This document shows positions 4,501 to 58,715 of a stretch of DNA of 64,000 nucleotides, piece by piece. The stretch lies in IMG/VR virus record IMGVR_UViG_3300034101_002296, positions 1-64,000 of that record, one strand, 5' to 3'. The notes under the pieces are model-generated. The model was not told the origin of the DNA. It worked only from the letters and a program-made list of their open reading frames with translations, and made no database searches. The translations under genes were made by a program, and so were the position numbers. The DNA is from a virus. Within the stretch, counting starts at the first letter, position 1. Every line of letters begins with the position of its first letter.

Positions 4501-4850
4501 GGGCCGGTAAAGGTATCGATTGGATCGTAGTTATTATGGTTAGCAAGTAGTGGTTGATCGACAGGCCACTTTAAAAGTCGATTAAACGCTTTAACTGGCG
4601 TAACACAGTTAGCTCTTGCTGCTTGAGAAAGTAGCAACAATCTTAGGAAGCGATGAAGGTAGCGTCCAAAAGATTGTCGTTAAATCCTTCTGCTGCTAGA
4701 ATAGCCAACGGGTTCTAGCTAAGATTTGTTGGTACGGAAAGATGAATGTTGATTGTTCTTTAATCTTTCTTAAGAATTTATGAACAACTAAACTTGTAGA
4801 AGCTATATTAACACTATCACAAGACATGGGTTCGACTCCCATCCGGTCCA
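4501..4850 (+). ncRNA. ssrA: tmRNA (transfer-messenger RNA)
   Basis: tmRNA rescues stalled ribosomes by adding a degradation tag. The ends form a 7-bp acceptor stem (GGGCCGG at 4501-4507 with CCGGTCC at 4843-4849), including a G3:U pair, the alanine identity element. A T-arm (ATGGG, loop TTCGACT, CCCAT at 4826-4842) precedes it. A pseudoknot is visible: 4549-4553 pairs with 4566-4570 and 4554-4562 pairs with 4577-4585. Eleven bases later an open frame begins at GGC (4597) and ends with TGA at 4624-4626, encoding GVTQLALAA. A at position -4 and U at -5 of the resume codon fit the known rule. The discriminator A is encoded but the CCA tail is not. No smpB is seen here. Confidence 0.93.
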
Positions 4851-4861
4851 CTTAAATAATA

Positions 4862-5110
4862 ATGATCAAAAAATCAATCAAACATTTAAAAGAAAATAAC
4901 ATGCATTATGGTGAACATTTATTGTTTGCTTGGTCGCATGGTATAATGTGTATTGTGTCTGGTGCATTATTGATCATACATGGCATAATACCATCTTTAT
5001 TTCCTAAGATTGGCTCTAGATTGATAGAAATATTAAACTATAGTTTCACTAATCGTAGGGGGTTTAAAAATGGCACTACTATCAGCAAGAACACTGATCG
5101 CGTTAACTAA
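4862..5110 (+). CDS. DUF6356-like small membrane protein
   Basis: An 82-residue protein with the arrangement HYGEHLLFAWSHG followed by one or two hydrophobic segments and IHGIIPSLFPKIGSRLI. This resembles DUF6356 proteins, small inner membrane proteins of unknown role. It starts 12 bases after the tmRNA. Its C-terminal third overlaps the start region of the endonuclease VII gene in another frame, so the true end or the downstream start remains uncertain. Confidence 0.6.
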   Translation: MIKKSIKHLKENNMHYGEHLLFAWSHGIMCIVSGALLIIHGIIPSLFPKIGSRLIEILNYSFTNRRGFKNGTTISKNTDRVN

Positions 5111-9977: not shown

Positions 9978-10847
9978 ATGAGTCAAAAATTATTAACAAT
10001 TGGTATGGCAACATATGATGATTATGATGGAGTATTTTTTACAATACAAAGTTTAAGAATGTATCATGAAATCTGTAACACAGATTCTGTAGAATATATT
10101 GTTTTAGATAATAATCCAAATAGCGAAAGCGGAAAAGTTACAAAAAAATTTGTTGAAAACGGATTAAATCAACTTGGTAAATACATACCAAAAGAAGATA
10201 AAAGTTCTAGTTTTAACAAATATGAAATAGTAAAACATGCTATTGGAAAATATGTTCTTATTATTGATTGTCATGTTTTATTAGTTAAAGGCGCTATTAA
10301 TTCGTTATTAAATTATTATGCAGAAAATAAGGATTGTAAGAACTTGATACAGGGACCGTTGATTTATGATGATCTAAAAAATTTTTCTACTCATTTTGAT
10401 CCCAATTGGAGCGGAGATATGTACGGAACATGGGCTACTGATCATGAAAAATATAAATCTAATAAACCATTTGAGATACTAATGCATGGTATGGGTTTGT
10501 GTTCTTTTGAAAAGAAAAACTGGCCGGGAATATGTGAACACTTTAAAGGATTTGGTGGAGAAGAAGGATATATAGCAGAAAAATTTAGAAGAAATGGTGG
10601 CAAAAATATATGCTTGCCACAACTTGGATGGGTACATAGATTTGGAAGACCGCTTGGTGTAAAATATCCATTAATACTTGAAGATAGGATATGGAATTAT
10701 TTTGTTGGATGGCTAGAATTAACTCAAGATCCAGATCATGAAATGATAAAACAAATTTTCTCATATTTTAAATCAAGAATACCAGAAAGCTCTATAGAAA
10801 ACATATTTAATTCCGCTCTAAATATAATCAAACTAAAAAATGAATAG
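9978..10847 (+). CDS. Family 2/27-like glycosyltransferase
   Basis: A 289-residue GT-A enzyme. The N-terminus LLTIGMATYDDYDGVFFTIQ is the nucleotide-binding strand and loop. IIDCHVLLVKG near residue 97 gives a D-x-H metal motif, and GFGGEEGYIAEKFRRNGGKN near residue 194 resembles the acceptor loop of polypeptide GalNAc-transferases. Sugar and acceptor cannot be told from sequence. It overlaps the third DUF1501 gene by 8 bases. Confidence 0.75.
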   Translation: MSQKLLTIGMATYDDYDGVFFTIQSLRMYHEICNTDSVEYIVLDNNPNSESGKVTKKFVENGLNQLGKYIPKEDKSSSFNKYEIVKHAIGKYVLIIDCHVLLVKGAINSLLNYYAENKDCKNLIQGPLIYDDLKNFSTHFDPNWSGDMYGTWATDHEKYKSNKPFEILMHGMGLCSFEKKNWPGICEHFKGFGGEEGYIAEKFRRNGGKNICLPQLGWVHRFGRPLGVKYPLILEDRIWNYFVGWLELTQDPDHEMIKQIFSYFKSRIPESSIENIFNSALNIIKLKNE

Positions 10848-12111
10848 AAGAAATATATTACAGCTTGGCGCATTGAGTTGTATTGGTATTAATAATACTA
10901 ATTATTCAATGTTAATTGCAGATGATAACATTGCTACAGAAGCAAAAGCAAAATCTGTAATTTACATATATTTACCCGGTGGATTTTCTACCCAAGAAAC
11001 ATTTGATCCTAAACCATTTGCCCCAGCAGAATACAGGGGGCCACTATCATCAATAGATACTTCAATTACTGGAATTAAATTTAGCGAATTATTGAAAGAT
11101 ACTGCCAAGATTGCAGATAAGATAACAGTAATACGATCTATGAACCATAATGAGGCAGCACATGAACGTGGAACACACAATATGTTTACCGGATGGCGAC
11201 CATCGCCAGCAATACAATACCCCAGTATTGGTTCTATAGTGGGTCATGAATTAGGTGGAAAAAACAATCTACCACCCTATATTACAGTACCAAATGTACC
11301 TAATGAATTCGCTGGTGCCGGTTATTTAAGTCATTCATATTCTTCTTTTAGTCTTGGTGGAAATCCAGAAGATCCCAATTTTAAAGTAAGAGATCTAAGA
11401 TTGCCAGAAGGAATATCGATACAAAGATTTGATAAAAGAAAAAAAATGTTGGAGGTCGTCAATAAAAATTTTGATGCAACACAAAAATCTGATGCTTTAG
11501 TTGCCATGAATTCATTTTATGAAAATGCTTTTGAGCTAATGGATTCTAATGCGGCTATAGAGGCATTTGATTTATCATTAGAAAAAGATGAAACAAAAGA
11601 AACATATGGCAAGAATTCTGCTGGCATGAGGATGTTATTATCAAGAAGGCTAGTAGAAGCTGGAGTAAGATTTATAACAATGACATATGGTGGATGGGAT
11701 CATCATGATAATATTGCTACTAATATGCAAACTCAATTACCACCTTTTGATAAAGCATTTTCAAGTTTAATACTTGATTTAGAATCAAGAGGATTATTAG
11801 AATCTACATTGGTAGTAGTTGGAACAGAGTTTGGAAGAACACCAAAAATAAATCCAACTGCCGGAAGAGATCATTGGCCCAAGCTATATAGTGGAATAAT
11901 GGCTGGTGGCGGTATAAAATCTGGAATAGTATATGGATCTAGCAATGATACGGCCACTGATCCACTAGATAATCCTGTGTCAGTAGAAGATTGGGCCTCG
12001 ACTATATATACACTACTTGGTATTAATCCAGAAAAACATATTATGGCTCCCGGCAATAGACCTGTAAAAATAGTAGATGGCGGAAAACCAATATTAGAAA
12101 TAATTGTATGA
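10840..12111 (+). CDS. DUF1501 family protein, third copy
   Basis: A 423-residue DUF1501 protein. It has PGGFSTQETFDPKP near residue 46, NEAAHERGTHNMFTG near 106, GGWDHHDN, GTEFGRTPKINP and AGRDHWP. The start MNRRNIL plus a weakly hydrophobic stretch suggests a Tat signal. It lies within the glycosyltransferase and sulfotransferase cluster, away from the tandem pair at 208-2738, and is followed by an overlapping exported thioredoxin gene. This context hints at a role outside the cytoplasm. Substrate unknown. Confidence 0.85.
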   Translation: MNRRNILQLGALSCIGINNTNYSMLIADDNIATEAKAKSVIYIYLPGGFSTQETFDPKPFAPAEYRGPLSSIDTSITGIKFSELLKDTAKIADKITVIRSMNHNEAAHERGTHNMFTGWRPSPAIQYPSIGSIVGHELGGKNNLPPYITVPNVPNEFAGAGYLSHSYSSFSLGGNPEDPNFKVRDLRLPEGISIQRFDKRKKMLEVVNKNFDATQKSDALVAMNSFYENAFELMDSNAAIEAFDLSLEKDETKETYGKNSAGMRMLLSRRLVEAGVRFITMTYGGWDHHDNIATNMQTQLPPFDKAFSSLILDLESRGLLESTLVVVGTEFGRTPKINPTAGRDHWPKLYSGIMAGGGIKSGIVYGSSNDTATDPLDNPVSVEDWASTIYTLLGINPEKHIMAPGNRPVKIVDGGKPILEIIV

Positions 12112-36614: not shown

Positions 36615-37097
36615 ATGTTAGAAGTAAAAATTACAGAACAGATGAAAGAGCGAGCTTTTCAAAAGGCCAAAGATATGGGTAAATTGGTTAATTCTATCAC
36701 TAATGGTGATGGTAATTTGGCTGGATTTTTAGGAGAAGAAATAGCCAATTCTGTTATTAATGGCACGATTAATAATACTTATGATTATGATATAATTAAA
36801 GAAGGAAAAAAATATGACGTAAAAACAAAAAGATGTACAAGTAAACCAAAAGAATATTACGAATGTTCGATAGCGGCATATAATACTAAACAAAAATGTG
36901 ACACATATGTATTCGTGCGAATAGAATACAAAAATAATAACTGGGGTAGGGCTTGGATTCTAGGATATTTTCCTAAAACAGAATATTTTCAAAAGGCAAG
37001 ATTTCTAAAACAGGGGGATATAGACCATAGTAATGGCTTTATTGTAAAAGCTAACTGTTATAATATGGCAATCAAGGATCTTAAACAATATGGCTGA
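36615..37097 (+). CDS. PD-(D/E)XK-fold nuclease, possible junction resolvase
   Basis: A 160-residue protein with AGFLGEEIANSVI near residue 37 (Glu) and a YDYDIIKEGKKYDVKTKR segment (Asp and the ExK-like YDVKTK). These place the active-site residues of a restriction-endonuclease-like fold. Its position beside a Cas4-like nuclease and recombinase suggests DNA repair or junction resolution. It overlaps an exostosin-like gene by 8 bases. Confidence 0.6.
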   Translation: MLEVKITEQMKERAFQKAKDMGKLVNSITNGDGNLAGFLGEEIANSVINGTINNTYDYDIIKEGKKYDVKTKRCTSKPKEYYECSIAAYNTKQKCDTYVFVRIEYKNNNWGRAWILGYFPKTEYFQKARFLKQGDIDHSNGFIVKANCYNMAIKDLKQYG

Positions 37098-37998
37098 ATT
37101 ACTCGACTTACATAAAGAATTTCATCTTGGTAATATGTTTACATATAACGTTGGAAAAAAATTAGCCAACTTATTATGTAATAAATTCAGAGTAATTCTA
37201 AAGTATGATAATGCAGAATTGCCAATATTTAATGATGATTTACTAAATATTGAAATAGCGACCTCAAGAGAAACACACTCTATACCTAATAATTTTTTTA
37301 GAGATGATGTTTACGCTATTTTTCAAAACTATTTTATGCTAGATAGATGGGAATATCCTATATATAATCCACTAGCATATCCAATGCCAATAGGAACATT
37401 TGTCGATTTTGATCAGTTGAAATCTATAGAAATCAAACCGATTCCAGAAAGGAAATATGATTTTTCTTTTGTGGGGCAAATACCACACACTGGTACTAGA
37501 GATTCTTTTAAAAGAAATATAGAACAATTAATATTAAAAACTGGCAAGAAGTTTAAATATGTATTAGAATTTACTAATGGTTTTAATAATGGACTATCAC
37601 ATACAGAATATGTTGAGCTATTAAACGACTCAAAAATAGCATTGTGTCCACCCGGCGCTTATAGCTTAGAAACATTTAGATTTTTTGAATGCATTAAAAT
37701 GGGCGCAATTCCAATGGTTGAAAGATTGCCCAAGCTGTGGTATTATGAGAATGCACCATTCTTCAAGTGTAGGTGGCACGAATTAGATTTTTATTTATCA
37801 ACATCTTTGAATTATCTAAATAGCACTATATCCAGAAACACATTTGAAAAATTAGCTATATATAATATGAACATACTAGATGAGCAACAACTCGCACTAC
37901 ATTTATATAAAGTATTACAAAATAGAAATAATATAGATAAAACAATTATACAATCAGAAATACAAAAAATAAGAAGAGAGCTAGAACAATATGTCTAA
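37090..37998 (+). CDS. Exostosin-like glycosyltransferase
   Basis: A 302-residue protein with the core of exostosin/GT47-type enzymes: YDFSFVGQIPHTGTRDSFKR near residue 122, then SKIALCPPGAYSLETFRFFE and CIKMGAIPMVE, which form the donor-binding region. It resembles the gene at 55970. Its place between a nuclease and the polymerase is unexpected for a sugar enzyme. Confidence 0.75.
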   Translation: MAELLDLHKEFHLGNMFTYNVGKKLANLLCNKFRVILKYDNAELPIFNDDLLNIEIATSRETHSIPNNFFRDDVYAIFQNYFMLDRWEYPIYNPLAYPMPIGTFVDFDQLKSIEIKPIPERKYDFSFVGQIPHTGTRDSFKRNIEQLILKTGKKFKYVLEFTNGFNNGLSHTEYVELLNDSKIALCPPGAYSLETFRFFECIKMGAIPMVERLPKLWYYENAPFFKCRWHELDFYLSTSLNYLNSTISRNTFEKLAIYNMNILDEQQLALHLYKVLQNRNNIDKTIIQSEIQKIRRELEQYV

Positions 37999-39586
37999 TA
38001 TTGCATTAAATTGTAAAACACATTTTAGTTTACTAAATGGCTTATCACAATGTGACGACTTAGCAAAGAGATGTAATGAGTATGGATATGATGGCTGTGT
38101 TATAGCAGATAAAAAAACCATATCTGGAGCAATAGAGTTTCATCAAGCCTGTAAAAAAAACAACATTAAACCAATTATAGGATGTGATTTTGGCGAATTT
38201 ATATTGATTGCAAAAAATAAATCTGGATGGTTTGAACTAATGAGAATAGTTTCAGATATTGATCATATCATGCTAGAGGATATTGCTAAAACCAACAATA
38301 TATTATGTATGTCTAACGATCTAAATATAGAAAAAATTTTTCTAGACAATTTTATTCAATGTAATATAAAGCAATATGCTATCTACTATGTAGATCAAAA
38401 GGACGTAGAGTGTCATCGTATTTTGTTATGTGCGGATCAGAAAACAACATTGCCAAATATAAAGAAAAAGATCAGAAACAATGAAGAATTTGAGCATATG
38501 GAATTTTTTACTAGAAATGATTTCTACTTAACTATTCCGCCAAGTGATACTATTTATCAATCAATTTCTGATAAGTTAAACATATTATGCGAGTCATATG
38601 ATATAACAGAAAAACCACGACTACCAAAATTTCAATGCCCAAATGATATTAATGAAAATGATTATTTGAGGCAGTTATGTAGAATTGGGTGGATGGATAG
38701 ATTAATCAAAACTGGTAAAATATTGAATGAAGATAAAAAGACGGAATATACTAATAGAATAAAACATGAACTGGATGTAATACTAAATGCAAATCTCGCC
38801 GGATATTTTCTAATTGTGCAAGATATAGTCAATGAAGTCAAGCGTAGAGGATGGTTAGCTGGTCCCGGTAGAGGTTCAGCCGCAGGGTGTCTGGTATCGT
38901 TTCTAGTAGGAATTACAGATGTGGACCCAATCCAACATGGTCTACTTTTTGAAAGATTCTACAACGAAGGTAGAAACACTAAAGACCACATCTCGTTACC
39001 AGATATTGATGTCGATGTACCAGCTGAATATAGAGATAACATTATTGACTATATCAAAACAAAATATGGACATGAAAATGTATCTCAAATGATTACATTC
39101 GGTAGACTACAAGGTAGAGCAGCATTAAAAGAGGTTTTAAGGATTAATGATGCCGTGTCATTTGCTGAAATGAATGAGATAACTAAAAGAATACCAAACG
39201 AGGCAGAAATCTCTGATCAGCTAGAATTAATGGGTGAAAAATCTATCATTAATTGGGCATTAGATAATGACGCTGAATCATTAAAGAATTGGTGCTATAA
39301 AAACGAAAATGGCACATTAGAAGGACCGCTAGCAGATATATTTAAACAGGCAATCGACATTGAGGGTACTAATAAGTCGCAAGGCAAACATGCGGCTGGA
39401 GTATTAATCTCTCAACAAAAACTTCTAGATATATGTCCAATGGTTAAAGACAAAAACGATCAAATGATAGCCGCATTTGAAATGAACGATTTAGAAAGCC
39501 AAGGACATATCAAGTTCGATATTCTTGGAATTGATTTATTAAGTAAGATCATGGAGATTATTGGAGACGAAAATGACAATAACTAA
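37991..39586 (+). CDS. dnaE: DNA polymerase III alpha, N-terminal half (PHP and palm)
   Basis: A 531-residue N-terminal portion of DnaE. The PHP domain starts at CKTHFSLLNGLSQCDDLAKR but lacks the metal-binding His and Asp set, as in E. coli. The palm has GPGRGSAAGCLVSFLVGITDVDP, PDIDVDV (Asp340 and Asp342) and KFDILGIDLL (Asp510), so all three catalytic aspartates are here. The protein stops 21 residues after the last one, just before the fingers domain, which is encoded separately at 40495. No intein is present. The first codon overlaps the exostosin-like gene. Confidence 0.92.
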   Translation: MSNIALNCKTHFSLLNGLSQCDDLAKRCNEYGYDGCVIADKKTISGAIEFHQACKKNNIKPIIGCDFGEFILIAKNKSGWFELMRIVSDIDHIMLEDIAKTNNILCMSNDLNIEKIFLDNFIQCNIKQYAIYYVDQKDVECHRILLCADQKTTLPNIKKKIRNNEEFEHMEFFTRNDFYLTIPPSDTIYQSISDKLNILCESYDITEKPRLPKFQCPNDINENDYLRQLCRIGWMDRLIKTGKILNEDKKTEYTNRIKHELDVILNANLAGYFLIVQDIVNEVKRRGWLAGPGRGSAAGCLVSFLVGITDVDPIQHGLLFERFYNEGRNTKDHISLPDIDVDVPAEYRDNIIDYIKTKYGHENVSQMITFGRLQGRAALKEVLRINDAVSFAEMNEITKRIPNEAEISDQLELMGEKSIINWALDNDAESLKNWCYKNENGTLEGPLADIFKQAIDIEGTNKSQGKHAAGVLISQQKLLDICPMVKDKNDQMIAAFEMNDLESQGHIKFDILGIDLLSKIMEIIGDENDNN

Positions 39587-39809
39587 GCAAGATATTAAAG
39601 CTGTTGTTTTTGCTGGATGCGCTGTAGATTGTGGTGGTGTGTCTATATGTAACATAGAAAATCATCTCAAGAACAAATTGATATCCAGAGCAGCAAAGTA
39701 CCAAGTTTGGTCAGATAAGCATCATTGTTATAATATGTATCATAATATTGATGAAGCTGTAGATAAATTTTTTGCATTAACCAGAGGAAAACTGAATGGC
39801 AAATCATAG
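39573..39809 (+). CDS. Hypothetical protein between polymerase halves, 78 aa
   Basis: Not recognised. A small protein with several Cys and His (FAGCAVDCGG, VWSDKHHCYN). The ATG at 39573 overlaps the polymerase gene by 14 bases and the exonuclease gene follows with a 14-base overlap. It is part of the same translational chain; a polymerase accessory role is only suggested by place. Confidence 0.55.
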   Translation: MTITKQDIKAVVFAGCAVDCGGVSICNIENHLKNKLISRAAKYQVWSDKHHCYNMYHNIDEAVDKFFALTRGKLNGKS

Positions 39810-40485
39810 AGATTATATTGTGTTCGACTTTGAAACTGGTGGCGCTGATCCAAATACATGTCAACCCACACAGATAGCCGCAGTAGCCATACATGCGAAG
39901 AAGTTGGAACTACAACCAAATGGAGTCTTTAATAGTGAAATTAGACCAATAATTGACGATGAAGAAGCTATTAAAGCTGGAGTAGGACCGCTTGAGGATA
40001 AGGCATTAGAGATTACCAGAAAAAATAGAGACACTTTAGCCAAAGCACCGCTACCAAAAGTTGTATGGAAAAAATTTGCAGAATTCTGTAATCAATACAA
40101 TTTTAAGAAAACATCATATACCGCACCAGTAGCTGTTGGCTATAATATCATTGGATATGATATGGTTATCGTAGATCGCTTATGTAAACAATATGGACCA
40201 TTTGATAAAATCAAAAATGAGCAAAAGATCTTTAATCCAATATTCAAGATAGATCTAATGAATCATATATATTGCTGGTTTGAAAATAATCACGATGTAA
40301 AAGGTTATAACATGGATTATTTAAGAGATTATTTCGGAATATCTTCAGAAAATTCACATGACGCCTTACAAGACGTTAAAGATACAGCAAATATACTGAT
40401 AAAATTTCTAAAGCTACAGCGTAATCTATTAAAGAAAATCAAGTTTGAAAAAGCCTTTGCAAATAGCGAACTCTATATACAATAG
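39796..40485 (+). CDS. DEDDh 3'-5' exonuclease (DnaQ-like)
   Basis: A 229-residue proofreading-type exonuclease. Exo I is YIVFDFETGGADP (Asp and Glu), Exo II is VGYNIIGYDMVIVDRL (Asp), and Exo III is ENSHDALQDVKDTANILI (His and Asp). This fits the DnaQ/epsilon fold. It lies between the two polymerase halves and probably proofreads for them, since neither half carries a DEDD domain. Confidence 0.88.
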   Translation: MANHRDYIVFDFETGGADPNTCQPTQIAAVAIHAKKLELQPNGVFNSEIRPIIDDEEAIKAGVGPLEDKALEITRKNRDTLAKAPLPKVVWKKFAEFCNQYNFKKTSYTAPVAVGYNIIGYDMVIVDRLCKQYGPFDKIKNEQKIFNPIFKIDLMNHIYCWFENNHDVKGYNMDYLRDYFGISSENSHDALQDVKDTANILIKFLKLQRNLLKKIKFEKAFANSELYIQ

Positions 40486-40494
40486 ACAATTAAC

Positions 40495-42042
40495 ATGAAA
40501 ACATTTAACATAAATGATTTTGATGACGACGAGGTTTGGGATTTGATTTGTACTGGAAAAACCAAAGGAGTTTTTCAATTAGAATCTAATCTTGGACGAC
40601 ATTGGGCTAAACAGCTAAAACCTAGAAACCTATCAGAACTTGCAGCTTTGATTAGTTTAATTAGACCGGGATGTCTAAAGGCGTATGTAGATGGCAAATC
40701 TATGACGCAACATTATATTGATAGAAAACATGCCAAAGACCCAGTAACATATCCTCATGACTCATTGGAGTCAATTTTAAGTGAGACATATGGTGTATTG
40801 GTATATCAAGAACAATCCATGATGATTGCACAAAAACTAGCAGGATTTTCACTAAAAGAAGCGGATTCACTGCGTAAAGCGATTGGCAAGAAAAATGCAG
40901 CACTCATGAATGAAGTCAAAGAACAATTTATTCAAGGATCAGAAAAACTAAATATAGTCACGAAAGAGTCAGCAGAAGAAATTTTCTCTTGGATAGAAAA
41001 ATCTAATAGATATGCATTTAATAAATCACATGCAGTCTCCTATGCTATCAATGCGTATTGGAGTGCGTATTGTAAAAAATGGAAACCACTAAGCTTCTAT
41101 AAAACTTACCTAAATCATGCACATAGAAAGCCAGACTCACAAAAAGAAATAAAGGAATTAATCACTGATGCAAAATCAAACGATATAGATGTATATCCAC
41201 CAAGGCTAGATAATCTATATACAGATTTCACAATCAAGAATGGTAAGATATTTTTTGGCTTAAATCATATTAAAAATGTTGGAGAAGCAGAGTGCAAAAA
41301 AATCCAAGAAATCAAATATAATCATGATATAACTAGATATACATGGCTAGATTGTTTGATAAATATTATTCATAGATACAACCTTAATAAGAGATCCGTT
41401 ATAGCTTTAATATCTGCTGGAGCATTTAATGGTAAATATAATCTAGAACATAGAAAAAAGATGTTATATGAATATGATAGTTGGAAATTACTTTCTAATA
41501 GAGAGCAAGATCATATAGCTAATAATTATGCTGGTAAAAAATCACTACATGACTGTATAATAGACTTATTATCAACACTAAAAATAGTACAAAGTAGACA
41601 GCAAATCGTATTAGATATTAGTAATTCACTGAAAAATCCAATGTACAACTTGGAAGATTCAATCGTAACTATAGCCGAAGAAGAATCGAAATATTTTGGA
41701 TGTTCTTTAACATGCAATAAGACAGATGCTTCTGACCAATTTCTTGCTGCTAATATGTGCAAAGATATATCCAATGGCTTGATAACAGGTAAGGCAAATA
41801 TAGTAGTGAGTATTAACTCTGTTCGTCAATACAAAACAAAAAAGGGTAAAAATCCCGGTCAGATAATGGCTTTTTTGTGTGCTGAAGACAGTAGTGGAAT
41901 GCTAGACTCTATTACCATTTTTCCAGAGACTTATTCAGAATATAAAGATTTATTGACAGAAGGCAATACAGTATATATTAATGGAGAAATCTCTAAAAAG
42001 GAAAACACATCATTAATTGTAAATAAAGTTACACAAGTTTGA
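40495..42042 (+). CDS. dnaE: DNA polymerase III alpha, C-terminal half (fingers and OB)
   Basis: A 515-residue C-terminal portion of DnaE, beginning where the palm ends. It has GVFQLESNLGRHWAKQLKP near residue 25, ALISLIRPG, GVLVYQEQSMMIAQKLAGFS, LRKAIGKK and RYAFNKSHAVSYAI, all of the fingers domain. A helix-hairpin-helix and an OB-type domain (ITGKANIVVSINSVRQYKTK) follow. Alone it has no catalytic Asp, so it must work with the 37991 product. The start at 40495 is 9 bases after the exonuclease stop. Confidence 0.92.
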   Translation: MKTFNINDFDDDEVWDLICTGKTKGVFQLESNLGRHWAKQLKPRNLSELAALISLIRPGCLKAYVDGKSMTQHYIDRKHAKDPVTYPHDSLESILSETYGVLVYQEQSMMIAQKLAGFSLKEADSLRKAIGKKNAALMNEVKEQFIQGSEKLNIVTKESAEEIFSWIEKSNRYAFNKSHAVSYAINAYWSAYCKKWKPLSFYKTYLNHAHRKPDSQKEIKELITDAKSNDIDVYPPRLDNLYTDFTIKNGKIFFGLNHIKNVGEAECKKIQEIKYNHDITRYTWLDCLINIIHRYNLNKRSVIALISAGAFNGKYNLEHRKKMLYEYDSWKLLSNREQDHIANNYAGKKSLHDCIIDLLSTLKIVQSRQQIVLDISNSLKNPMYNLEDSIVTIAEEESKYFGCSLTCNKTDASDQFLAANMCKDISNGLITGKANIVVSINSVRQYKTKKGKNPGQIMAFLCAEDSSGMLDSITIFPETYSEYKDLLTEGNTVYINGEISKKENTSLIVNKVTQV

Positions 42043-42056
42043 GGATTATAGATCAT

Positions 42057-42353
42057 ATGAATAAGTGTCATTTTCTTGGTAGGTTTGTAGATACGCCACA
42101 ATTGCAAACAAATGATTTTGCAAAATTCACTAGATTTCTTCTAGAAATAGAAGAATATAGAAAAGATAAAGATGGAAACAAGCGTAAAAGAAAAGATATA
42201 TTAGAATTTGAAGCATGGGATAGTGCTGCAATAGCGATTACCACTCAATCAATGGCTAATGACTATATAGTAGTAGAGGCCGTAGCTAGAAAAGAAAATA
42301 ATAATACTGTTTTTAGAATCACAACATTTAAAATATTTGTAAATCAAAATTGA
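42057..42353 (+). CDS. SSB-like OB-fold protein, second copy
   Basis: A 98-residue OB-fold protein beginning MNKCHFLGRFVDTPQLQ, with KFTRFLLEIEEYRK, a basic DKDGNKRKRKDILEFEAWDS loop and a final strand. It follows the SSB pattern weakly. The ATG at 42057 has GAGG upstream, unlike the in-frame TTG at 42039. It follows the polymerase C-terminal half, suggesting a replisome role. Confidence 0.75.
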   Translation: MNKCHFLGRFVDTPQLQTNDFAKFTRFLLEIEEYRKDKDGNKRKRKDILEFEAWDSAAIAITTQSMANDYIVVEAVARKENNNTVFRITTFKIFVNQN

Positions 42354-42354
42354 T

Positions 42355-43992
42355 ATGAAAAAGAAAGTTTTATTCTTATCAGAAGCTCCGTGGTATAGCA
42401 CTGGATATTCTGTATATGGAAATCAAGTCCTAAAAAGACTAGTACAAAATCCATCTTTAGATGTTGCACAAATAGCTATATACGCCTCTTCAGATGACCC
42501 ACATGTCAAAGATTTTCCTTGGAAAATTTATGGCAATAAACCATCAAGTAATCATCCACAATATAAGACTTATCAAGTAAGTCCTAGCGCTCAATTTGGG
42601 GATTTTTCTTTTAATGAAGTATTATTAGATTTTAATCCACATTTTGTATTAGATATTAGGGATTGGTGGATGATTGAGTTTCAGCAAAGATCGCCGTTTA
42701 GAAATTTTTTCAAGTGGGCAATAATGCCAACTGTTGATGCTGAACCACAAAATAATCAATGGATTAATACATATGAATCAGCAGATGCTGTTTTTACATA
42801 TTCAGAATTTGGTAGAGATGTACTATTAAATCAGTGTGATAATATTAAGTTTTTAGACATTGCATCTCCAGCAGCAAGTGAATGTTTTACTCCTGTTGCT
42901 AACAAGGCACAACATAAATCACAATGCGGTTTAAGACCAGATTCATTGATATTTGGCACCGTCATGCGTAATCAAAAAAGAAAACTTTATCCAGACTTGT
43001 TTGAATCATTTAGAGAATTTCTAAATCTATCAAATAGAAATGATGTATTTTTATATTGCCATACATATTATCCAGATATCGGATGGAATATACCAGAATT
43101 ATTAGACACGTATTCTTTATCTAACAGGGTATTATTTACATACAAATGTAAAAAATGTGGTAAAATTACTACTGATTTTTTTCAAGATGCTATGCAGTTT
43201 TGTAAGTCGTGTGGTAATTTTACTAATGCGTTGGTTGGTATTGGCAATAGCATTACAGAAAAAGAATTAGCTAAAATCTATAATATATTTGATGTATATA
43301 TACAATATGCAAATAGTGAGGGTTTTGGTATGCCGCAATTAGAAGCAGCATACTGTGGTTTACCAGTTGTTTCTATATATTATTCAGCAATGAAGTCTGT
43401 CATTGATAATATCGGAGGTATAGGTGTAAATCCAATTGCGTTTAGTAAAGAATGCGAAACCGGTTGCAATAGAGCTATTCCAAACAATCAAGAGTTTATT
43501 GATATATTATTAAGGCTATCAGAAAAAACTCAAGATGAATTAAAAAATATAGGTACTAGCGTATGCAATAAAGCAAGAAAAGCATATAGTTGGGACCAGA
43601 CAGCAAATAAGTGGATGGACTATATATTAAATACAGAAATTATACCAGAGCATCTTTCTTGGAAATCACCATCAAAATTATTTAGTCCAGCACATGCTAT
43701 TCCAGAACAGTTGACTACATCTTTAGATAAGGTTAATTTCATTTTTAATAACGTATTGGGAAAACCAGAATGGATTGGCGGATATCTTTGGAGAAGAGTA
43801 TTAAGAGATTGTAGTTTTGGATATAGGTGTGAAAATCTTGAGCATGATTTTTACTTTAATGAATCGCATATACAATCATATAGTACTGTTAAACCATTTT
43901 CTATAGATGAAGCCATGAAAGAAATGACAAATTTTAGACTACAAATGAATCATTGGGAACAGGCCAGATTGGAAAAATTTAAAATATCATGA
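42355..43992 (+). CDS. Family 4-like glycosyltransferase with zinc ribbon insert
   Basis: A 545-residue GT-B enzyme. The N-terminal domain has SEAPWYSTGYSVYGNQVLKR and the C-terminal domain ANSEGFGMPQLEAAYCGLPV, the E-x7-E donor site. Between them, near residues 263-287, is a four-Cys insert (CKKCGKI, then FCKSCGNF) resembling a zinc ribbon, rarely seen in such enzymes. A C-terminal extension of about 100 residues follows. It opens the large glycosylation cluster. Confidence 0.8.
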   Translation: MKKKVLFLSEAPWYSTGYSVYGNQVLKRLVQNPSLDVAQIAIYASSDDPHVKDFPWKIYGNKPSSNHPQYKTYQVSPSAQFGDFSFNEVLLDFNPHFVLDIRDWWMIEFQQRSPFRNFFKWAIMPTVDAEPQNNQWINTYESADAVFTYSEFGRDVLLNQCDNIKFLDIASPAASECFTPVANKAQHKSQCGLRPDSLIFGTVMRNQKRKLYPDLFESFREFLNLSNRNDVFLYCHTYYPDIGWNIPELLDTYSLSNRVLFTYKCKKCGKITTDFFQDAMQFCKSCGNFTNALVGIGNSITEKELAKIYNIFDVYIQYANSEGFGMPQLEAAYCGLPVVSIYYSAMKSVIDNIGGIGVNPIAFSKECETGCNRAIPNNQEFIDILLRLSEKTQDELKNIGTSVCNKARKAYSWDQTANKWMDYILNTEIIPEHLSWKSPSKLFSPAHAIPEQLTTSLDKVNFIFNNVLGKPEWIGGYLWRRVLRDCSFGYRCENLEHDFYFNESHIQSYSTVKPFSIDEAMKEMTNFRLQMNHWEQARLEKFKIS

Positions 43993-57466: not shown

Positions 57467-57940
57467 ATGAACATAGCGGCTATTGTTGACAACCTTGGGC
57501 CATCACAAAAGTCATTTTATCTCATAAAAGAATTTAATAAAACATTATCACAAAATGATTTATGTGTATCGGTTTTCTTTAAAAGAGCTTCTGTTCCAGT
57601 AATACCAGCTATGTTTTCATGCAAAAGCGTATCATTTTTGTCTGGATATCACCATACGGCAATTGCTACAACTATAGATGAAGCTAGTATTTTATTAAAA
57701 TCTAATAATAATGCAAATAAATTTTTATACTTATGGAATCTAGAATGGTTAACGTATCCATCAAAATATTCCGCTATAACAAATATATTACGTGATTCAA
57801 GATTAAAAATCATTGCCCGTAGTGAGTCACATGAGGCTATGATATACAATTTTTGCAATAAGAAAACAGTAGGAATTGTTGACAACTGGAATGTTAGTCA
57901 GTTACTTTCTCTTACTCAACAGGATTATTCTAATGTCTGA
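57467..57940 (+). CDS. GT-B N-domain-like protein, 157 aa
   Basis: Not firmly recognised. NIAAIVDNLGPSQKSFYLIK is like the start of a GT-B or nucleotide-binding domain, and KFLYLWNLEWLTYPSKYS and IARSESHEAMIYNF follow. It is short, with no donor site, so it may be a partial or accessory form. It overlaps the nuclease gene by 8 bases. Confidence 0.5.
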   Translation: MNIAAIVDNLGPSQKSFYLIKEFNKTLSQNDLCVSVFFKRASVPVIPAMFSCKSVSFLSGYHHTAIATTIDEASILLKSNNNANKFLYLWNLEWLTYPSKYSAITNILRDSRLKIIARSESHEAMIYNFCNKKTVGIVDNWNVSQLLSLTQQDYSNV

Positions 57941-58715
57941 TCTAAACGAAGAATATATTGTAGAACAATACGTTATTAAAAATAAGAGTACGTGTAGTAT
58001 AGCAAAAGAATTAAATACTTATCCAAAGAAAATTGAACGTATTCTCAAAAAGAACGGACAACAATTACGAGATAAATCTGAAGCTCAATCATTAGCTCTA
58101 AAAAGCGGTAGAATAAAACATCCCACTAGAGGAAAAAAAAGAACAGAACAAGAAAAAGATAAGATTGGCATAGCAATAAGACAAAACTGGAAAGAGATGC
58201 CAAAATCCAAAAAAGATGATTTTTGTTCACAGGTTAAAAAACGATGGGATGAAATGTCGGCTATTAAAAAAAGAGAACTACAAGAGATGGCTGGACGAGC
58301 ATTGCGTCAGGCATCAATTGAAGGATCTAAGGCGGAAAAAATATTGAGAATTAAATTAGAAAAACTTGGTTATGATATTATGTTGCACAAGAATAATCTC
58401 ATACCGGGAGATTTTGAAATAGATTTGTTTTTGCCACAACTTCGCACTATAATAGAGATAGATGGGCCACAGCATTTTCTTCCATTATGGGGCGAAGATA
58501 AGCTTCAAAAAATTATTAAATCTGATGAAAGAAAAAATGGTTTATTGTTAACACATGGATATTGTGTTATTAGAATAAAATATCTTTGTAAACATATGAC
58601 AAGATCTATTGGTAATAAGTTGTGCAAATTGGTATTAGATCACATATCCAGTATTGAAAATAAGTTTCCACCTAAAGGTCAAAGATTTATTGAATTGGAG
58701 ATAAATAATGAGTGA
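57933..58715 (+). CDS. VSR/DUF559-like nuclease with DNA-binding N-terminus
   Basis: A 260-residue protein. Residues 1-50 have a helix-turn-helix-like segment (CSIAKELNTYPKKIERILKK). A basic middle region holds TRGKKRTEQEKDKIGIAIRQ, like the NUMOD-type modules of homing endonucleases. The C-terminal domain, GDFEIDLFLPQLRTIIEIDG plus PQHF, is a VSR/DUF559-type nuclease. The ATG at 57933 is preferred over an upstream one. It lies at the edge of the sugar cluster and could be a free-standing homing endonuclease. Confidence 0.72.
   Translation: MSDLNEEYIVEQYVIKNKSTCSIAKELNTYPKKIERILKKNGQQLRDKSEAQSLALKSGRIKHPTRGKKRTEQEKDKIGIAIRQNWKEMPKSKKDDFCSQVKKRWDEMSAIKKRELQEMAGRALRQASIEGSKAEKILRIKLEKLGYDIMLHKNNLIPGDFEIDLFLPQLRTIIEIDGPQHFLPLWGEDKLQKIIKSDERKNGLLLTHGYCVIRIKYLCKHMTRSIGNKLCKLVLDHISSIENKFPPKGQRFIELEINNE

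Follow-up and report, generated by a model that had tools for sequence, protein, structure and literature searches.

A DNA polymerase III alpha subunit gene divided between palm and fingers, with an exonuclease gene in the gap, in a clade of uncultured phages

The window analyzed here, 64,000 nucleotides (nt) covering positions 1 to 64,000 of the 82.8-kb uncultured virus record IMGVR_UViG_3300034101_002296, carries a DnaE-type DNA polymerase III (Pol III) alpha subunit gene that is divided into two genes, here named polN and polC for the N- and C-terminal halves. The break lies between palm and fingers, is conserved among relatives that form one clade, leaves the active-site residues intact and under purifying selection, and is accompanied by no splicing signal that we could find. 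We consider it quite probable that the products constitute an intein-free, two-chain family C replicase, docked non-covalently and served by the exonuclease encoded between them as a proofreader.

The identity of both halves was established by profile searches. polN matched the Pfam families PHP (E = 6e-16) and DNA_pol3_alpha (PF07733; E = 1e-72, 245 bits, above the curated cut-off), while polC matched DNA_pol3_finger (PF17657; E = 8e-48, 162.3 bits, above the curated cut-off), HHH_6 (E = 3e-11) and, weakly, the OB fold (20.8 bits versus a cut-off of 27). Within the 1190 positions of PHROG 405, the polN match ends at 609 and the polC match begins at 627; the two are therefore neighboring parts of one protein and, by sequence comparison, adjacent parts of a single DnaE-type alpha subunit. 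They likewise align to contiguous parts of DnaE profiles and structures. According to these alignments, the break is at the palm/fingers boundary, directly after the third catalytic Asp: polN residue 519 pairs with residue 564 of Escherichia coli alpha, and polC, which opens at the start of the fingers, pairs at residue 9 with E. coli residue 591. The polN alignment also extends over the thumb region, as that domain is usually delimited. Pfam, PHROG 405 and the E. coli alignments thus bear out an initial sequence-only reading of this DNA, which had proposed a Pol III alpha split between palm and fingers, with an exonuclease in the gap and a C-terminal half beginning at the fingers. That reading had also placed PHP, palm and three catalytic Asp in the N-terminal half; the domains and Asp 510 were correct, but the other two Asp, given as 340 and 342, are D338 and D340 when aligned to solved alpha subunits. 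The E. coli counterparts of D338, D340 and D510 are presumably D401, D403 and D555.

The four genes lie head to tail. polN and the small gene overlap by 14 nt, the small gene and the exonuclease gene by another 14 nt, and 9 nt separate the exonuclease gene from polC, in agreement with the overlapping or near-touching order first read from the sequence. The small gene was counted from its ATG at 39573, and the open reading frame (ORF) list also holds an upstream TTG at 39561. A family C polymerase is expected to be a single polypeptide; here, a stop codon and 908 nt stand between the halves. A scan of positions 37900-42400 returned 26 promoter-like sites versus 25.5 expected and 1 terminator-like site versus 1.5 expected. 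The exonuclease matched RNase_T (Pfam; E = 2e-11) and PHROG 192, "DNA polymerase exonuclease subunit."

Table 1. Features of the split polymerase locus (window positions; lengths in amino acids, aa)
Feature	Position	Strand	Description
polN	37991..39586	+	531 aa; N-terminal half of DnaE-type Pol III alpha: PHP, palm, thumb
small gene	39573..39809	+	78 aa counted from ATG; conserved accessory candidate
exonuclease	39796..40485	+	229 aa; DEDDh 3'-5' exonuclease, likely epsilon-like proofreader
polC	40495..42042	+	515 aa; C-terminal half of DnaE-type Pol III alpha: fingers, HhH, OB
break polN/polC	39587..40494	+	908 nt, polN stop to polC start; remainder of small gene + exonuclease inside

Relatives were gathered by four viral-contig scans and one GTDB-contig scan (first set); counts refer to the loci fetched, and because the best 80 loci were kept per scan, they do not represent the whole collection. 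Leaving aside L001, L011, L012 and L158, as well as L239 and L240, both distant bacterial alphas without a split, the first set comprised 234 loci, 231 of which contain both halves and correspond to 110 distinct DNA segments; L095, L137 and L140 end short of polC and were excluded from the counts. All 110 distinct relatives have a stop before polC and an exonuclease inside the gap, and 106 also have the small gene, which is missing in L234, L235, L236 and L238. These four originate from GTDB bins assigned to Lokiarchaeota (L235 and L236), Chitinophagia (L234) and SAR202 (L238), and they are probably phage contigs inside those bins because they carry the phage-type polymerase block. A wider scan of viral contigs, the fifth, used a more distant member as the query and yielded 80 further loci, which possibly overlap in part with the first set. 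Both halves were present in 77 of them, all split with the exonuclease in between (68 distinct by junction sequence). A search of other viruses for the same split and gene order, as the sequence-only reading had suggested, returned it in 110/110 and 77/77 relatives with both halves. For L262, L310 and L314, polN lies outside the fetched flank, with palm and fingers each present once in separate open frames; the distance between them is about 0.8 kb in one of the three and about 7 kb in L310 and L314 (records G008 and G009). In these last two, the exonuclease gene still adjoins polC, and about five other genes occupy the place of polN upstream of it. In the phage collection, 1,267 records matched polC and 1,314 matched polN, all at less than 60% identity, and no close cultured relative was present among the 60 matches listed per half (best identities of 31.0% for polC and 33.7% for polN).

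The residues expected of a working enzyme are retained throughout these relatives. All three catalytic Asp were found in 99/99 unique polN sequences of the first set and in 59/59 unique full-length polN of the wider set. The DEDDh residues of the exonuclease (D11, E13, D122, H188 and D193) were present in 84/84 and 65/65 unique sequences, respectively; in the wider set a strict pattern passed only 41 of the 65, and an alignment check recovered all five residues in every one. Of 81 unique polC sequences, 78 kept the residues of the FQLES region, the fingers motif; the other three fit the intein-bearing L088, L092 and L155 described below. Ratios of nonsynonymous to synonymous substitution rates (dN/dS) were calculated by the Nei-Gojobori method for 28 close pairs, keeping dS values of 0.05-1.8, the higher of which are near saturation. 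Median dN/dS was 0.037 for polN (23 pairs), 0.062 for the small gene (20 pairs), 0.014 for the exonuclease (22 pairs) and 0.032 for polC (21 pairs), showing that purifying selection is strong; the highest polC value (0.40, L088 versus L092) is an outlier from rows whose starts were mis-set by inteins. An assembly artifact or a decaying gene is hardly credible against this background. The record does come from an uncultured virus, and polN of the distant relative L332 lies in overlapping pieces that possibly reflect a sequence error. However, six other metagenome contigs encode identical polN, small and exonuclease proteins, with polC identical as far as the contig reaches (L002-L005 are whole, L009 and L010 are cut within polC), the 110 distinct relatives are arranged alike, and selection is strongly purifying. 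The assembly error that the sequence-only reading had named as a way to overturn it is thus absent, and the artifact or decaying-gene explanation was rejected on the conserved arrangement across relatives.

Two phylogenetic trees were built from the joined halves together with alphas of other phages and of bacteria, and in both the split sequences formed one clade on a branch with 100/100 support. The first tree contained 16 split and 15 other rows. The second contained 23 and 12 rows; four split sequences had been left out of it, along with three of the others, including two long branches. Split alphas of the Bacillus phage Jayan and the Tenacibaculum phage Larrie, discussed below, were placed outside the split clade in both trees. 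The split therefore most likely would have arisen once, in an ancestor of a large clade of uncultured phages.

We then considered whether the halves might be rejoined after expression. None of Intein, Hint, TIGR01443 and TIGR01445 matched window polN or polC, ends included, which upholds the original remark that no intein is visible; both ends align as ordinary DnaE to within a few residues of the break. A search of positions 37000-43000 for Rfam introns found none, the single sub-threshold match being the Chlorobi-RRM motif (E = 0.98). Joining by an unrecognized split intein through trans-splicing, or by an intron spanning the small and exonuclease genes, would nonetheless have parallels, since split inteins and intron- or intein-like breaks occur elsewhere in the same polymerase of relatives. 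An intein within polC at RPG|C was found in L088 (5093-7249) and L092 (6650-10086). In L092 and L155 (3530-6443), FNK is also followed by an N-intein half, then by a nuclease-like gene, and finally by what to the eye resembles a C-intein start ahead of SHG or SHA; the nuclease-like gene matches NUMOD3 and DUF559 in L155 and, weakly, Vsr and DUF559 in L092, both below the cut-off. The FNK|SH break is presumably near, yet not at, the cyanobacterial DnaE split site. The first part of polN in L303 (1062-4122) ends in an intein-like stretch that scores 36.3 bits, with the cut-off at 35.8; next come a nuclease-like ORF, itself under its cut-off, and the remainder of polN. In turn, polN of L325 (1108-4101) is in two pieces, with a LAGLIDADG-domain ORF after a break at the catalytic motif. 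At the palm/fingers break itself, however, the flanking sequences are those of ordinary DnaE and neither an intein, a Hint domain nor an Rfam intron was matched; the gap genes are conserved and under selection, and gap content is variable. The halves of L310 and L314, about 7 kb and several genes apart, speak against any joining in those phages. Taken with these observations, we regard rejoining of the window halves as very improbable.

The content of the gap varies among relatives, in which 44 distinct extra ORFs of at least 60 aa were counted. A cluster of Endonuclease_7 proteins comprised 12 sequences spread over 23 loci, of which some overlap on one contig, and typing of ten representatives against Pfam, three of which had no match, further revealed HNH_3, a T5orf172/MUG113 protein, and sugar-nucleotide and methyltransferase genes. 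Given the inteins and homing-type genes in the polymerase of these relatives, a homing-element origin of the palm/fingers break is plausible as an unproven proposal: a homing endonuclease or split intein may have fractured the gene, the invader being lost later. Elsewhere in the window, positions 57876-58715 hold an HNH/homing-endonuclease-like gene (PHROG 559, E = 3e-8).

On the reading we favor, polN, bringing PHP, palm, thumb and the three metal-binding Asp, would dock with polC, bringing fingers, HhH and OB, to re-form the alpha fold as the phage's own family C replicative polymerase, in two chains held together without covalent joining. The overlapping or near-touching genes would favor coupled and roughly equal synthesis of the proteins. 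N7, K9 and K41 of window polN stand at positions where Thermus alpha has His, which makes a nuclease role for this PHP domain unlikely. Because the domain has lost these metal ligands, the gap-encoded exonuclease would most likely bind as an epsilon-like proofreader, a partnership with alpha to which the gene neighborhood points. In the wider set, a simple pattern picked up the motif HxH[ST] near the N terminus in most polN (48 of 59 unique full-length sequences); it is also present in L079 and absent from the window and the five other rows compared alongside L079, so that ligand loss in the PHP domain seems to postdate the split.

The small protein probably serves the polymerase complex as an accessory, and its place there would be a guess. 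No Pfam or PHROG family matched it at E = 0.001 (best of 86 members, E = 0.005), and the best match in a PDB sequence search had E = 0.62. AlphaFold2 (AF2) modeled it as a compact alpha-beta fold with a predicted local distance difference test (pLDDT) of 79.5 and a predicted template modeling score (pTM) of 0.67. A fold search with this model gave no match at E = 0.001, and the best viral model match was a phage protein without a name (E = 0.013, TM-score 0.65-0.70). Other short ORFs of 60-71 aa, without clear likeness to the window small gene, occupy the slot between polN and the exonuclease gene in L234 (3145-3333), L235 (2806-3021) and L325 (4101-4283).

A variant of this arrangement is that the split is functional, giving an obligate three- or four-chain replicase in which the exonuclease and a branch-specific small slot protein hold palm and fingers together. 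It fits the constant position of the exonuclease gene beside polC, which holds even when 7 kb separates the halves, and if true would couple polymerase assembly to proofreading and open it to regulation; we rate it as a minority possibility and rather doubtful. Less probable still is that the halves do not make one polymerase, one or both having other roles (polN, for example, as a nuclease or regulator), or each half pairing with the host alpha, while the host replicase copies the phage. The lack of a beta-clamp match in the record would suit such a division of roles. Conversely, every relative examined retains all the catalytic and finger motifs together, both halves have similarly low dN/dS, and the phage brings helicase, primase and proofreader genes of its own.

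The replication genes of the record encode a DnaB-like helicase, a primase, a UvsX-like protein, a ribonucleotide reductase and a single-stranded DNA-binding protein. One PF07733 match and one PF17657 match were obtained in the whole 82.8-kb record, so that neither a second Pol III alpha nor the full-length DnaE whose discovery would have unsettled the sequence-only reading was found there, in a record that may itself be a fragment. PolA (PF00476), PolB (PF00136) and beta-clamp (PF02768) had no match in the record, and PolA and PolB were likewise missing from seven of seven long relatives, which span 97-154 kb and have a single palm copy apiece.

Several points weigh against the two-chain replicase and its proposed history. 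The record and its relatives are possibly fragments, making another polymerase conceivable, and both non-covalent assembly and polymerase activity are deduced from sequence. A read-through model of relative L014 (polN from residue 205, exonuclease and polC) reached a pLDDT of only 50.0 and a pTM of 0.34; this locus was chosen for having polN, exonuclease and polC in one frame, and the model was built with stops read as a residue and 9 alignment rows. For the origin, the window's own gap contains only the small gene and the exonuclease gene and no homing gene, leaving the argument indirect. The direction of change is taken from the rarity of splits, the trees being unrooted, and no unsplit close relative was present among the matches listed from five viral-contig scans and one GTDB scan, the distant L239 and L240 being the only unsplit sequences among the GTDB matches listed.

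Family C replicases are normally single large chains whose fingers move against the palm during nucleotide selection. In cyanobacteria, DnaE is likewise encoded by two genes, but there the cut falls inside the fingers and split-intein trans-splicing repairs it, whereas the window gene is cut between palm and fingers and has no intein. Fractured genes with split inteins and homing endonucleases were reportedly described by Dassa and colleagues in 2009. Friedrich and colleagues are said to have shown in 2007 that homing endonuclease insertion left a ribonucleotide reductase in pieces, the two chains working without splicing; this is a two-chain enzyme too, yet a different one, and the window gap is without a homing gene while some relatives have one. 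Phage MIJ3 carries a split PolB with a split intein (PMC6892783). Such cases share with the present locus an essential phage gene broken with other genes in between, and L092 and L155 are similar at FNK|SHA, but the palm/fingers break of the window has no intein. Fragmented polymerase genes with an intervening ORF or endonuclease have also been noted in OM43 phages (PMC10580990) and in the Jug phages of the gut (PMC12363816), with introns as the proposed or partial explanation; the passages concerned name neither a family C alpha nor a palm/fingers cut, unlike the window.

The sequence-only reading had called a two-chain polymerase core unusual, and so it is, but it is not unprecedented. The closest published case found is that of group 2.2 jumbo phages, in which a minimal Pol III alpha is encoded as two proteins proposed to restore the enzyme between them (Iyer et al. 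2021, PMC7824862). The likeness is that of a phage family C alpha in two separate proteins. As described there, the jumbo-phage enzyme has catalytic and template-binding domains only, its genes are far apart, a family B polymerase is present, and the cut divides NTP-binding from Mg2+-binding parts (PMC7824862). The window, in contrast, retains PHP, HhH (HHH_6) and OB and has an exonuclease gene between the halves, and no PolB (PF00136) was found in its record or the seven long relatives, which are possibly fragments; going by that description, the jumbo-phage cut is probably at another place. Bacillus phage Jayan (PQ299153.1) and Tenacibaculum phage Larrie (ON950054.1) each have two adjacent genes whose annotation reads DNA polymerase or Pol III alpha, but in both the cut falls within the palm, immediately ahead of the PDxD motif. 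Their parts might be joined by RNA or protein splicing; no Rfam intron was found at either break. In Jayan (L011, ~4740-5060), the break reads KMP|DID; 10 odd residues precede the stop, ~270 nt lie in between, and the whole looks like an unannotated intron, although Rfam finds none. Phage polymerases in separate parts, a further Pol III alpha among them, are thus already published, and the palm/fingers split with an exonuclease in between is a variant of these. No description of a palm/fingers split of Pol III alpha was found in literature titles and abstract openings, subscription papers being mostly outside the scope of that search.

A palm-fingers joint turned into a two-protein interface would offer a natural experiment on how much a replicative polymerase owes to covalent continuity, and the split point is a candidate break for split-polymerase designs. 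The clade would also show the aftermath of an essential-gene fracture once the break is fixed. For annotation, the main polymerase of many uncultured phages could easily be recorded as fragments. In Bacillus phage vB_BpsS-140 (MH884512.1; L251), a DnaE-like match falls where the record has no annotated gene.

Outside the polymerase locus, a transfer-messenger RNA gene lies at window positions 4501-4853 (tag GVTQLALAA by ARAGORN; Rfam RF00023, 99.5 bits). Three DUF1501 proteins (PF07394, E = 1.9e-82 to 1.8e-109) are encoded at 160-1497, 1494-2738 and 10840-12111. DUF1501 is frequent in Planctomycetes, and this trio may hint at a Planctomycetes-linked host.

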